In this document: piece after piece, positions 1-24,770 of the stretch
How the letters are laid out: every line of letters begins with the position of its first letter
How positions within the stretch are numbered: the stretch's first letter is position 1
Source of the DNA: Bacillota bacterium
Lineage (GTDB): Bacteria; Bacillota; Sulfobacillia; Sulfobacillales; JAIMBI01
DNA: 35,814 nucleotides
Assembly: GCA_021797815.1 (NCBI GenBank)
Contig: JAJZYZ010000026.1
Coordinates: 1-35,814 of the forward strand
Direction: 5' to 3'
Notes under the pieces: model-generated
The model's input: the letters and a program-made list of their open reading frames with translations, nothing else
What the model was told of the DNA's origin: nothing
Databases searched by the model: none
Program-made: the position numbers and the translations under genes

Positions 1-49
1 AGGCACGCCGCCAGCGTTCGTCCTGAGCCAGGATCAAACTCTCCAGGCT
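1..49 (-). rRNA. 16S ribosomal RNA, 5' end only (cut by window edge)
   Basis: Read on the minus strand, bases 42 to 31 give AGAGTTTGATCC, the near-universal 5' region of bacterial 16S rRNA (primer 27F site), followed by the conserved GGCTCAGGACGAACGCTGG stretch. The mature 5' end is placed about seven bases before AGAG, by analogy with E. coli numbering, so the boundary at 49 is approximate. Only the first ~49 nucleotides are present; the rest lies outside the window. Confidence 0.95.
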
Positions 50-153
50 GAGACGCGCGGCCTCGCGGCCGCCCGCCTCGGATGTTCGTTGGTGTGTGGT
101 ACACGCTGACCAGTTGTCAAGGACCGGGTGTCGCACACGCGACAGCATCAGCT

Positions 154-181
154 ATCTTAGCACAATGACCGGCCCGATCAA
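154..181 (-). promoter_or_regulatory. Candidate rRNA operon promoter
   Basis: On the minus strand TTGATC (181-176) is followed after 16 bases by TAAGAT (159-154), which is preceded by TGC, an extended -10. It points at the 16S gene about 100 bases downstream, a normal leader length. A TTGACA (120-115) lies closer to the gene and could be the -35 of a second tandem promoter, but no good -10 follows it. Bases 182-390 hold no gene I can support. Confidence 0.5.
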
Positions 182-390
182 ACGGGCGGACACGATTTCC
201 TTGCGACCTGGCGGCCGGCCGCCGCGCACGACAGCCGTGGACTGCTACAGGCCTCCGGGTGCCGTGGTTTCTGCCCCACGCGATGCGGTTGTCGGAAGTG
301 TCGTCTTTCTTGCGGCCGTTCAATTTCGATAATGCCGAACCCACCCCCGGAGATGCCTTACAACGGAAACGGCCGATGGGCCGGACGGCA

Positions 391-420
391 TTGATCCTCT
401 CCCCGCCGACGCCGTAAAAT
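391..420 (+). promoter_or_regulatory. Promoter of the ABC-F gene and its leader
   Basis: TTGATC (391-396) and TAAAAT (415-420) are separated by 18 bases. Transcription would start near 427, just before the leader ORF at 451, leaving an untranslated leader of about 140 bases before the ABC-F start codon. The good match and correct placement support it; the start site itself is inferred. Confidence 0.65.
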
Positions 421-450
421 GGAGTGCATAGCGTTTGAGGAGGGAGCACC

Positions 451-471
451 GTGATCCGAGAACTCGGTTAG
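451..471 (+). CDS. Putative six-codon leader peptide of the ABC-F gene
   Basis: A GTG codon at 451 follows a strong ribosome binding site, GAGGAGGG (437-444), at six bases spacing. The frame is GTG ATC CGA GAA CTC GGT TAG, giving MIRELG. It lies between the promoter and mutually exclusive hairpins, the usual arrangement for ribosome-mediated attenuation of antibiotic-resistance genes. Translation is inferred: the ORF is too short for coding statistics, and the case rests on the strength of the ribosome binding site and the position. The same ribosome binding site could in principle belong to an in-frame N-terminal extension of the ABC-F protein from a TTG at 435, but that TTG lies inside the site. 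Confidence 0.55.
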   Translation: MIRELG

Positions 472-478
472 GCCCAGC

Positions 479-565
479 AAAGGGCGTAGTCTGCCCTTTT
501 GGTGCCCGCCGGGTCTCGGGAAGGCGACTCCCGCCTTCCCTCCGCATCAAGCAGGAGGGTTTTTT
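479..565 (+). terminator. Attenuator: three hairpins ending in an intrinsic terminator that contains the ABC-F ribosome binding site
   Basis: Three stems can be drawn. Hairpin 1 pairs AAAGGGC (479-485) with GCCCTTT (493-499). Hairpin 2 pairs GGGAAGGCG (518-526) with CGCCTTCCC (532-540), nine perfect pairs with a five-base loop. Hairpin 3 pairs CCCTCCGC (538-545) with GC-A-GGAGGG (551-559) and is followed at once by six T residues (560-565), an intrinsic terminator. Hairpins 2 and 3 share bases 538-540, so they cannot both form completely. The 3' arm of hairpin 3 holds the AGGAGGG used to translate the ATG at 567, so it could block transcription and translation. A ribosome stalled on the leader ORF could shift the balance; that mechanism is inferred. 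Confidence 0.6.
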
Positions 566-566
566 C

Positions 567-2150
567 ATGTCTTGGATGCGCGTCAACGATCTCACCATTG
601 CGGTCTCCGACCGTGTGCTGCTGGCCCACGCCACCTTTCGCATCGATCCCGGAGATCGCATCGGAGTGCTGGGCCCCAACGGGATGGGGAAGACATCGCT
701 CTTCCGGGTCCTCACCGGTGACCTCCTTGCACACGACGGTTTTGTGGAGCGGTCGCCCGACTTGAGACTGGCCACGCTTGACCAGCTGGCCAGCCAGGAT
801 GATGAGCGCACCGTTTGGGATACTGCCTATGCGTCGAATCCCCGGATCCCCGAGCTTGAGACCTCCCTGCGAGCCTTGGAGCACACGATGGCCGATCCCG
901 CCGCGGACGACCTCGAGACCGCACTGGTCCAATACGCTAACTGTCAGGAGCTTTATCAGGAGCTCGGTGGATATGAGTGGGACGCCCGGGTAAATCAGGT
1001 GCTGCAAGGACTCGGGTTTCCCGCATCACGGTTCCAGGACTCTGTCCGCATCCTGTCTGGTGGTGAACGCCATCGCCTGGCTCTCGGGCGACTTGTCCTT
1101 TCCGGAGCTCAGCTCTGGATTATGGACGAACCCACCAACCACCTGGACGTGGCGGCCATGGAATGGCTTGAGCGCACTCTGAACCAATTTCCGGGCGGGG
1201 TCATCATGGCGTCGCACGATCGACGATTCCTGGAGCGCGCCGCGACGCGCATCATCAGTTGGGAAGACGGCTACTTTTTCACCGTATCCGGCAACTATCG
1301 TCAGTACCAGGCGGTGCGCCGCGAACGCCTCCAGCGGCTCCAAGAACAGTGGAAGCGATACCAAGAAGAGCGGCAGCGCCTCATGGCTTTCGTAGACCGA
1401 TTCCGGGCCGGCACCCGTTCGACGCAGGCAAAAAGCCGTCTGCACGCGATCGCGCGCCTCGATCGGGAGGCGCTGCCGCTTCCGGTAAGGGCACGCACCG
1501 CGGTTCGGACGCTTCGCCACGCTGGATCCGTACTGCCGGGGACGATTGCGGTCGACGTGGACGGACTGGTCCTCGAGGTGGGTTCCCGGGTCTGGGAGCC
1601 GATTTCCTTTCGCCTGCCCACCGTGGCCCGCATGGGGGTTGTCGGTCCGAACGGTTCGGGGAAGACGACACTTCTGTCGGCGCTGGTTCAGGGACTCGCC
1701 GGCGTCCGGTGGAACCCGGACGCGGTTCTGACGTGGTATGACCAGTATGCCGCCGACCGCCTTCCCACGGACCAGACTGGCATGGAGCTCGCGCACGCGG
1801 AGGGGATGGACCGTGAGACTTGCTATGCGCTGGGGGCGCGCTTCGGCCTGTCTCCCGACCTCTTGAATACCCTCACCGGGTTCTGGTCGGGAGGCGAGCG
1901 AGCGCGGCTTGCCCTCTTGTTCGCCCTCATGGCACGCGGAAACGTCTTGCTTCTCGACGAGCCGACCAACCACCTCGATCTGCCCATGCGGGAGGAGTTG
2001 GAGGCGCTGCTGGCCGGATATCCGGGACTTGTAATTCTCGTCAGTCACGACCGCGAGCTATTGGACAACCTGTCCACGCACACGCTTTGGTGGAAGGACG
2101 GAGCGTTCACATTTACGCCCCGTCCTTACTCCGAAGCGGTCGGAACCTAA
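567..2150 (+). CDS. ABC-F family ATP-binding protein (ribosome-associated; possible antibiotic resistance factor)
   Basis: The 527-residue protein has two ABC ATPase domains and no membrane segment, which defines the ABC-F class of ribosome-binding translation or ribosome-protection factors. Domain 1 has Walker A GPNGMGKTS (about residue 36), signature LSGGERHRLAL (about 162) and Walker B LWIMDEPTNHLD. Domain 2 has Walker A GPNGSGKTT (about 358), signature WSGGERARLAL and Walker B VLLLDEPTNHLD. The arginine/glutamine-rich linker between them is the region that reaches the P-site tRNA in this family. It ends soon after domain 2, without a long C-terminal extension. The ATG at 567 is chosen because it follows AGGAGGG (553-559) and starts the family-like N-terminus; a reading frame open from 435 adds residues without family character. 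The attenuator suggests inducible expression, as for resistance-type ABC-F genes, but the linker looks like housekeeping members, so the substrate is unknown. Its stop codon overlaps the convergent rocA stop. Confidence 0.93.
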   Translation: MSWMRVNDLTIAVSDRVLLAHATFRIDPGDRIGVLGPNGMGKTSLFRVLTGDLLAHDGFVERSPDLRLATLDQLASQDDERTVWDTAYASNPRIPELETSLRALEHTMADPAADDLETALVQYANCQELYQELGGYEWDARVNQVLQGLGFPASRFQDSVRILSGGERHRLALGRLVLSGAQLWIMDEPTNHLDVAAMEWLERTLNQFPGGVIMASHDRRFLERAATRIISWEDGYFFTVSGNYRQYQAVRRERLQRLQEQWKRYQEERQRLMAFVDRFRAGTRSTQAKSRLHAIARLDREALPLPVRARTAVRTLRHAGSVLPGTIAVDVDGLVLEVGSRVWEPISFRLPTVARMGVVGPNGSGKTTLLSALVQGLAGVRWNPDAVLTWYDQYAADRLPTDQTGMELAHAEGMDRETCYALGARFGLSPDLLNTLTGFWSGGERARLALLFALMARGNVLLLDEPTNHLDLPMREELEALLAGYPGLVILVSHDRELLDNLSTHTLWWKDGAFTFTPRPYSEAVGT

Positions 2151-3694
2151 AGCTGTTCGGCCACGGCCTTCATCTGCATGAAAAGGAGGAGGTAATCAGG
2201 CGACCCCGTCTTGGAGTCCGTGCCCGACATGTTGAAGCCGCCAAATGGGTGCGCGCCGACGACCGCGCCGGTGCACTTCCTATTTATATAGAGGTTGCCC
2301 ACTTCGAACTCACGTCGGGCCTGTTCGATACGTTCGCGACGGCTCGTGTATAGAGAGCCGGTCAAGCCGTAGTCGGTGTCGTTGGCGATCTCGAGCGCGT
2401 TATCAAAGTCTCGCGCCCGAATCACGGCCAGCACCGGTCCGAATATCTCTTCCTGTTCGATCCGAGAGCCCGGCTCCACATCACCGAATACCGTAGGGGC
2501 AATGAAGTAGCCCGGCTCTCGGGCCCGTTCTCCGCCCGCAAGGAGACGGGCGTTCGCCTTGCCCCACTCGATGTACTCCATGATCTTACGAAACGCCCGT
2601 TCTTCGATGACGGGCCCGACACTATATGCCGGATCTTCCGCCGGTCCGATTTTCAGGTTTCGGGTCAGCTCGACCACCCGCTCAGCCACCTGTTCGTACA
2701 CGGCATCGACAATAATGGCGCGGGAGCACGCCGAGCATTTCTGACCCTGGTAGCCGAAGGCCGACGCGACTATGCCCTGCGCAGCAGATTCCAGGTCGGC
2801 CGTCTCGTCCACCACGATGGCGTCCTTGCCTCCCATCTCCGCCACGACCCGTTTGATAAACCGACTGTCCGGCCTTGTGTCGGCCGCCAGGCGGTTGATG
2901 TGAAGACCTACCTCGCGCGAACCCGTGAACGACACGAACCGCGTCAGACGGTGGCCAACCAGATGGTCGCCAATCTCGCCGCCGTCGCCGGGGACGAAAT
3001 TGATCACGCCGGGCGGAATGCCGGCCGCCTCCATGACCTCCACGAACTTGGCCGCAATGACAGGTGTGGGGCTCGCCGGCTTCAAGACGACCGTGTTTCC
3101 TGCCACCACCGCCCCCACAGTCATCCCACTCAGGATCGCCAGGGGAAAGTTCCAAGGTGGGATGATAGCTCCCACCCCTAACGGAATGTAAAAGGCCTGG
3201 TCGTCCTCCCCATTGAGCGGAACCACGTCCACCGGCTTCGACAAACGCTCCGCCTGACGCGCGTAGTATTCGAGGAAGTCAATGGCCTCGGCGACGTCGG
3301 CGTCGGCTTCGGGCCAGGATTTCCCAGCCTCCACCACCTCCCAGGCCGACAACTCGAACTTCCGGCGGCGCATGATGGCCGCCCCACGATAGAGATATCG
3401 TGCGCGTTCTTGGGCGGTGAGCCGTCGAAAGGAGCGAAAGGCGTGGTCCGCTGCGTCCAGCGCTTGGTCGACCTCGGTTCGGCCCGCCTTGTACACGCGG
3501 CCAACAACCTCGTCGGGTTGACCCGGATTCAAAGACACGAGCATATTGGCGGTCGTCACGCGGCCCCCGCCGATGATAAGCGGATAGCTTTTGCCAAGCT
3601 CCTGCCGTACCTGCGCCAGCGCCCGCTCCATGGCCGACCGACTGACAGGGTCAGAAAAATTTGTCAATGGCTCCGGCCGATAAACACCAACCAT
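2147..3694 (-). CDS. rocA: L-glutamate gamma-semialdehyde (1-pyrroline-5-carboxylate) dehydrogenase
   Basis: This 515-residue NAD-dependent aldehyde dehydrogenase is expected to oxidise glutamate semialdehyde to glutamate, the second step of proline and ornithine breakdown, in the cytoplasm. Visible family features are IPPWNFPLAI (substrate/cofactor region), the general-base Glu in VVAEMGGKDA, the catalytic Cys in GYQGQKCSACSR, and the C-terminal AHPFGGFNMSGTDSKTG segment typical of the RocA/PruA group. The length matches stand-alone P5C dehydrogenases, so it is not the bifunctional PutA. It is the second gene of a two-gene operon, 14 bases after the thioesterase gene. No proline dehydrogenase gene is present in the window. 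Other aldehyde dehydrogenases are possible, but the C-terminal segment favours RocA. Confidence 0.92.
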   Translation of the reverse strand: MVGVYRPEPLTNFSDPVSRSAMERALAQVRQELGKSYPLIIGGGRVTTANMLVSLNPGQPDEVVGRVYKAGRTEVDQALDAADHAFRSFRRLTAQERARYLYRGAAIMRRRKFELSAWEVVEAGKSWPEADADVAEAIDFLEYYARQAERLSKPVDVVPLNGEDDQAFYIPLGVGAIIPPWNFPLAILSGMTVGAVVAGNTVVLKPASPTPVIAAKFVEVMEAAGIPPGVINFVPGDGGEIGDHLVGHRLTRFVSFTGSREVGLHINRLAADTRPDSRFIKRVVAEMGGKDAIVVDETADLESAAQGIVASAFGYQGQKCSACSRAIIVDAVYEQVAERVVELTRNLKIGPAEDPAYSVGPVIEERAFRKIMEYIEWGKANARLLAGGERAREPGYFIAPTVFGDVEPGSRIEQEEIFGPVLAVIRARDFDNALEIANDTDYGLTGSLYTSRRERIEQARREFEVGNLYINRKCTGAVVGAHPFGGFNMSGTDSKTGSPDYLLLFMQMKAVAEQL

Positions 3695-24445: not shown

Positions 24446-24574
24446 GGCTCAGAGCCGCACCGACCAGGATTATCCGCGGCACTACAACAGCTCCGCTTAC
24501 CGCTGCTCCCTTCCGGGCCTGACGGGGTTCACGGGTGTCGCACGCACGGGTCCCGATCGATGCGGCTCTGAGCC
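24446..24574 (-). ncRNA. ffs: Signal recognition particle RNA, small bacterial (4.5S-like) type
   Basis: On the minus strand the centre contains the universal SRP domain IV: GTCAGGCCCGGAAGGGAGCAGC (the GGAA tetraloop and asymmetric loop that bind Ffh). The ends pair over 15 bases (24560-24574 against 24446-24460), closing one long hairpin of about 129 bases with no Alu domain. The position between tRNA-Ser and dnaX is the classic one in Bacillota. End positions are set by the closing stem and may be off by a few bases. Confidence 0.93.
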
Positions 24575-24581
24575 CAAACAG

Positions 24582-24671
24582 TGGCGGAGGGAGAGGGATT
24601 CGAACCCTCGAGACAGTTGCCCGTCAACACGCTTTCCAGGCGTGCGCCTTAGTCCTCTCGGCCATCCCTCC
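24582..24671 (-). tRNA. tRNA-Ser (anticodon GGA)
   Basis: The minus strand gives a 90-base class II cloverleaf with a long variable arm: acceptor GGAGGGA against TCCCTCC, discriminator G, encoded CCA. The anticodon arm CACGC / CTGGAAA / GCGTG gives GGA, which reads TCC and TCT. It lies eight bases upstream of the SRP RNA gene. Confidence 0.94.
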
Positions 24672-24677
24672 GAAAAC

Positions 24678-24770
24678 TGGCGGAGAGAGAGGGATTCGAA
24701 CCCTCGAGGCGAGTATGACCCGCCTACCCGATTTCGAGTCGGGCTCCTTCGTCCGCTCGGACATCTCTCC
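24678..24770 (-). tRNA. tRNA-Ser (anticodon CGA)
   Basis: The minus strand gives a 93-base class II tRNA with a long variable arm: acceptor GGAGAGA against TCTCTCC, encoded CCA. The anticodon arm CCCGA / CTCGAAA / TCGGG gives CGA, which reads TCG. It lies six bases from the other tRNA-Ser gene. Confidence 0.94.

Follow-up and report, generated by a model that had tools for sequence, protein, structure and literature searches.

The ABC-F genes cplR, vmlR and msrD are each preceded by a very short upstream open reading frame (uORF). The uORF of cplR encodes the peptide MRI, and the terminator of this leader itself encloses the Shine-Dalgarno (SD) sequence of the gene (PMC10201436). The leader of vmlR, with the uORF MIN, contains an anti-antiterminator, an antiterminator, a terminator and a structure hiding the SD (PMC9226507), and the leader of msrD encodes the hexapeptide MYLIFM (PMC10314930). 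These systems are compared here with the leader of an ABC-F gene found in a window of 35,814 nucleotides (contig C15), which belongs to the 2.9 Mb genome of an uncultured Sulfobacillus relative. The members of the order Sulfobacillales used for comparison include Sulfobacillus.

The ABC-F gene of the window points away from the 16S rRNA gene, whose start motif is located 544 nt upstream. The section between the two genes, spanning 391-566, contains a promoter-like site, an SD, a six-codon ORF, hairpins and a terminator. The coordinates are collected in Table 1. The original prediction had placed the promoter at 391-420, the ORF MIRELG, preceded by an SD, at 451-471, a hairpin at 518-540 and a terminator at 538-559 followed by six T residues, and all of these elements were recovered at those positions. 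It had overlooked P1, the pairing of ORF codons 2-6 with 509-519, which overlaps P3.

Table 1. Features of the ABC-F leader and its surroundings in the window
Feature	Position	Strand	Basis
16S rRNA gene, 5' end	~1-50	-	read from sequence
Promoter-like TTGATC-18-TAAAAT	391-420	+	motif; kept as TTGATC-18-TACAAT in the closest relative, L002
Leader-ORF Shine-Dalgarno, SD1, GAGGAGGG	437-444	+	sequence; kept in leader homologues
Leader ORF MIRELG, GTG start, stop TAG, six codons	451-471	+	sequence; homologous ORFs in relatives
P1, putative anti-antiterminator: ORF 456-461 with 514-519, 463-467 with 509-513	456-519	+	MFE and compensatory change
P2, hairpin AAAGGGC/GCCCUUU within P1 loop	479-499	+	relatives have a differing hairpin at this position
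P3, putative antiterminator, nine-pair hairpin GGGAAGGCG/CGCCUUCCC	518-540	+	folding; seven-pair core invariant in six species
P4, predicted intrinsic terminator CCCUCCGC/GCAGGAGGG and U6, enclosing the ABC-F SD	538-565	+	folding; shuffles
ABC-F Shine-Dalgarno, SD2, GGAGGG	554-559	+	7 nt from ATG 567
ABC-F ATPase, 527 aa, two ABC domains and ABC_tran_Xtn linker	567-2150	+	start ATG 567

The promoter-like site is the sole sigma-70-type match in positions 1-3000, where 0.5 matches are expected. The P3 hairpin has a folding energy of -16.9 kcal/mol. The P4 stem, CCCTCC-GC/GC-A-GGAGGG, contains one bulge (A553) and has an energy of -12.9 kcal/mol; T560-565 comes directly after it. A simple terminator scan did not list P4, probably because of the bulge; RNA folding does find it. 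The ABC-F start codon has its SD in the 3' arm of P4. The proposal that the terminator arm doubles as the ribosome binding site is confirmed at the sequence level by the folding, and in 5000 dinucleotide-preserving shuffles of 421-566 no terminator with an SD as part of its 3' arm was produced. The same shuffles gave a short ORF led by an SD 49 times (about 1%). The leader as a whole folds with z = -3.65 and is more stable than all of 200 shuffles. No second U-run site with this form of terminator was found on either strand of the whole window. A search with Rfam gave no leader family at the gathering score over the window, and none at E <= 1 over 300-700.

These arrangements allow us to propose that the leader is probably a ribosome-mediated attenuator acting in cis on the ABC-F gene, with a predicted circuit of anti-antiterminator, antiterminator and terminator. 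We infer use of the promoter, translation of the ORF and termination at 560-565. Without stalling, the leader ORF would fold into P1 and occupy the start of the P3 5' arm. P3 would then be disfavoured, P4 would form and transcription would end in the U-run; in any read-through RNA the ABC-F SD would be locked inside P4. A ribosome stalled on the six-codon ORF would block P1 and allow P3 to form while the 3' arm of P4 is still to be transcribed. Since P3 would take the base of the P4 5' arm, read-through would follow, and the ABC-F SD would be at least partly freed. The signal may be an antibiotic that targets the ribosome, or stalling of some other cause that the ABC-F protein relieves. Lincosamides, macrolides or pleuromutilins, the inducers named in the original prediction, would be purely conjectural candidates.

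The family of the window comprises six leaders, representing only about four independent sequences. In its RNAalifold consensus, which excludes P3 and includes P1, P2 and P4 together with a helix between SD1 and the U-run that closes the structure, 95.5% of the cells are paired, compared with 41-62% in slid controls. Eight pairs are changed on both sides, and the covariation score was reached by none of 500 shuffles. A compensatory change from A-U to C-G is found at the P1 pair 461:514, and the hairpins of different sequence at the position of P2 in the relatives also have compensatory changes. The upper part of P1 as drawn contains a mismatch in L004-L006. The equivalents of P4 in L003-L006 have eight or nine pairs of the form GCCUUCCC(U)/(A)GGGGAGG(C/U). 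The core of P3 is invariant, and therefore covariation neither supports nor refutes this hairpin.

The competition between the hairpin at 518-540 and the terminator at 538-559, which the original prediction had described, holds in part. In L003-L006 the two structures have the entire CCUUCCC arm in common and are mutually exclusive. In the window, however, they overlap only in three nucleotides (538-540) and can coexist once a few pairs are lost; the overlap of P1 and P3 there is 518-519. The switching was modelled on the assumption that a ribosome covers positions -14 to +15 relative to the P-site, and the values given are model energies and the probabilities derived from them. With the ribosome at codon 1, the probability of P3 is about 0.9-1.0 in all six leaders before the 3' arm of P4 exists. 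In the free RNA it starts at 0.1-0.4 and is low in most leaders, and with the lengthening transcript it reaches about 0.95 in L004 and 0.6 in L006. The probability of P4 in the window is 1.00 in the free RNA, about 0.5 with the ribosome at codon 1 and 0.2-0.3 at codon 4. In the nearest relative, L002, the same treatment has a weaker effect than in the window, and P3 is not favoured when the ribosome sits at codon 4. In L003-L006, P4 beats P3 at equilibrium despite the covered ORF, and the switch in these leaders must therefore be kinetic. Kinetic switching is usual among attenuators. In the window, opening the ABC-F SD is modelled to cost 6.8 kcal/mol, and this drops only to about 5.3 kcal/mol.

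The conservation of the leader ORF was assessed within 200 nt upstream of the ABC-F genes, accepting ORFs of 2-30 codons with AGGAGG, GGAGG or AGGAG located 4-11 nt from the start. By this rule all 12 loci from two Sulfobacillales clades have an SD-led short ORF, which is missing from all 16 other members of the order that were scanned and also from the closest other ABC-F clade. All 12 leaders have AGGAGG or AGGAG at a spacing of 7-8 nt. The peptides of the window's family are MIRELG, MVRELG, MVVRALA (three loci) and MVRALA, and those of the second clade are MVVRQLP (two loci), MAVRQLP, MVVLQLQQ, MMVRCQPR and MMVHCQPR. Between the clades, in 80 codon comparisons that are not independent, the residue is the same in 44 and the codon in only one, and the differences are mostly at the third position. 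Of 180 orders of the residues in MVVRALA, a single one agrees with MVVRQLP at four positions, for a pair that was picked post hoc. A candidate leader peptide (M)VVRxL, conserved in its residues and not in its codons, is suggested by these sequences. The macrolide arrest motif +x+ was considered and is not present in MIRELG or MVVRALA. Further copies of the leader were found neither in the genome of the window nor across the order, and thus no regulon is seen.

Aligned across the relatives, the leader has a conserved peptide and stems with compensatory changes. The reading as a leader-peptide attenuator is well supported by this comparison, in which the ORF with its SD is kept, pairs are compensated and the competing hairpins are conserved. 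In the ABC-F tree the proteins of the order form one group, and the members with a leader fall into two separate clades, which demands at least two changes. The tree thus does not establish one origin of the leader, which may be ancestral and lost in places, may have been gained twice, or may have been transferred. The leaderless locus L010 has, upstream of 1501, the sequence AGGAGGCCCTCCGATG, whose SD could pair with CCTCC right before the start codon; this is possibly another kind of SD hiding.

The RNA of the second clade is arranged differently. An anti-SD (UCCUUC) that follows the leader SD and precedes the leader start codon pairs directly with the ABC-F SD, while the leader ORF pairs with the sequence just 5' of that SD. 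This consensus structure is 87.9% paired, compared with 44-58% in slid controls. In L013, opening the ABC-F SD is modelled to cost 13.6 kcal/mol before and 2.2-2.6 kcal/mol after codons 1-3 are covered. For L014 the corresponding values are 10.7 and about 2.4 kcal/mol, and in both leaders the cost returns once the ribosome is at the last codon. The same cost changes from 6.9 to 3.8 in L012, falls by about 2.5-3.5 in L027 and L031, and changes from 6.8 to 6.3 in L011. The covariance model of either clade gave only background-level scores against the other clade, and therefore the RNA structures of the two are not recognisably homologous. Scores were likewise at background level for the second-clade model against the leaderless loci. 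The link between the leaders of the two clades would thus lie in the gene, its position and the peptide, and the peptide appears to have been preserved while the RNA wiring changed, using a terminator in one clade and SD/anti-SD pairing in the other.

The position beside the 16S rRNA gene is also found in other members of the order. In addition to the window, the ABC-F gene is divergent from an adjoining 16S rRNA 5' end in L011, L012, L014-L018, L021, L023, L025, L026 and L031. In these members, with or without a leader, the 16S start is located 258-959 nt upstream of the ABC-F gene, and several further ABC-F contigs stop at roughly the same distance. Genome G027 has two diverged ABC-F copies (L011 and L031), each with a leader and an adjoining 16S rRNA start. 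Elsewhere in the window, a small SRP RNA (24459-24770, minus strand) adjoins two tRNA genes.

The ABC-F protein of the window fits no named resistance family. It reaches 323.5 bits against the general ribosomal-protection ABC-F model NF000355, below the cut-off of 380, and is far below the cut-offs of Vga, Msr, Sal, OptrA, Lsa and the other named resistance models. In a phmmer search of the PDB, the top match is EttA with 241 bits, and the ExpZ/VmlR entry 6ha8 reaches 184 bits. The linker between the H-motif and the second Walker A has 144 residues, while EttA has 140, OptrA 142 and MsrE 176; the extended interdomain linker of the MsrE type is thus not found in this protein. A long linker is not obligatory for a resistance ABC-F, as the 142 residues of OptrA demonstrate. 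One protein with the ABC_tran_Xtn domain is found in the genome of the window and in five of six relatives checked, and G008 has two. Placement of the protein among resistance and housekeeping types is not reliable because of long branches. The term resistance-type, which the original prediction used of vmlR, msr and others, is therefore not established for this gene: the scores are below the named-model cut-offs, the linker is close in length to those of EttA and OptrA and much shorter than that of MsrE, and this is the sole ABC-F found in its genome.

These features bear on a different reading, in which the ABC-F is a general translation factor whose scarcity would cause pausing on the leader, so that its level would be set by itself without any drug. 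It agrees with the single ABC-F of this linker type in the window's genome and most relatives checked, with EttA chains as best matches and an EttA-like linker and arm spacing, and with the finding that MsrD represses its own expression through its leader (PMC10314930). However, related ABC-Fs of the same order have no such leader, the known short leaders of similar design, vmlR and cplR, are drug-responsive (PMC9226507, PMC10201436), and no recognised arrest motif occurs in MIRELG or MVVRALA. We consider this reading unlikely. A fuller form of it, in which a VRxL arrest peptide would allow the sole ABC-F of the lineage to control its own amount, the sensor being kept and the output rewired from a terminator to SD/anti-SD pairing, is quite doubtful.

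Control could also be mainly translational, with P4 hiding the SD, the U-run a mere spacer and termination minor. In the second clade the same peptide occurs with an ABC-F SD hidden by anti-SD pairing, L012 and L013 have no clean U-run, and cplR stays repressed by SD hiding even with its poly-U mutated (PMC10201436). This explanation nevertheless does not seem likely, as T6 directly follows a -12.9 kcal/mol hairpin in the window, T4-T6 is located one base past the terminator stem in four g3 relatives, and the shuffles never gave such a terminator. Since an SD-led short ORF occurs in about 1% of shuffles, the window alone might represent a chance ORF before an ordinary gene, expressed constitutively and having a stable 5' leader. 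Twelve loci, however, retain the ORF while differing in synonymous codons; together with the compensatory helices and the specific absence of the leader elsewhere, this makes a chance ORF very improbable.

The attenuator proposed here would extend the uORF-controlled ABC-F genes to the acidophilic Sulfobacillales. Conservation of residues without codons would be unusual for leaders that merely catch initiating ribosomes. The two clades would form a natural pair, in which the same gene and a similar sensor peptide are connected to two RNA outputs, useful for studying the evolution of attenuators. If the ABC-F is a housekeeping protein and not a resistance protein, this would be an unusual case of leader control over such a factor. 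A search of the open-licence literature gave nothing joining Sulfobacillus with ABC-F and nothing on ABC-F uORFs with MVVR, which is weak evidence of novelty.

Among the described systems, Clostridioides difficile cplR is similar in several respects. A 5' hairpin sequesters a very short uORF, an antiterminator is present, and the terminator stem encloses the SD of the gene and is followed by poly-U at the start codon (PMC10201436). The enclosure of the SD in the terminator, which the original prediction gave as one reason why the system is worth testing, is thus not new. Transcriptional and translational attenuation act jointly in cplR (PMC10201436), and the same is predicted here. However, the cplR uORF has three codons (MRI), while the leaders of the window's type have 6-7 codons, the VRxL pattern and an extra hairpin in P1, and CplR is a characterised resistance ABC-F, while the window protein belongs to none of the named resistance families. 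Bacillus subtilis vmlR also has its uORF inside the anti-antiterminator, with an antiterminator, an intrinsic terminator and SD hiding, but its terminator and SD-hiding hairpin are separate (SL-3 and SL-4) (PMC9226507), while here they are merged in one stem. Streptococcal msrD shares a hexapeptide leader, MsrDL, an ABC-F gene and an intrinsic terminator; in MsrDL, however, it is the peptide sequence that makes ribosomes stall at the stop codon when cladinose macrolides are present (PMC10314930), and that peptide is unrelated to MIRELG. Compared with these systems, the new features appear to be the peptide, the lineage, the change of wiring under a preserved peptide, and an ABC-F gene that is often located beside a 16S rRNA gene, belongs to no named resistance family and is the sole ABC-F found in its genome.
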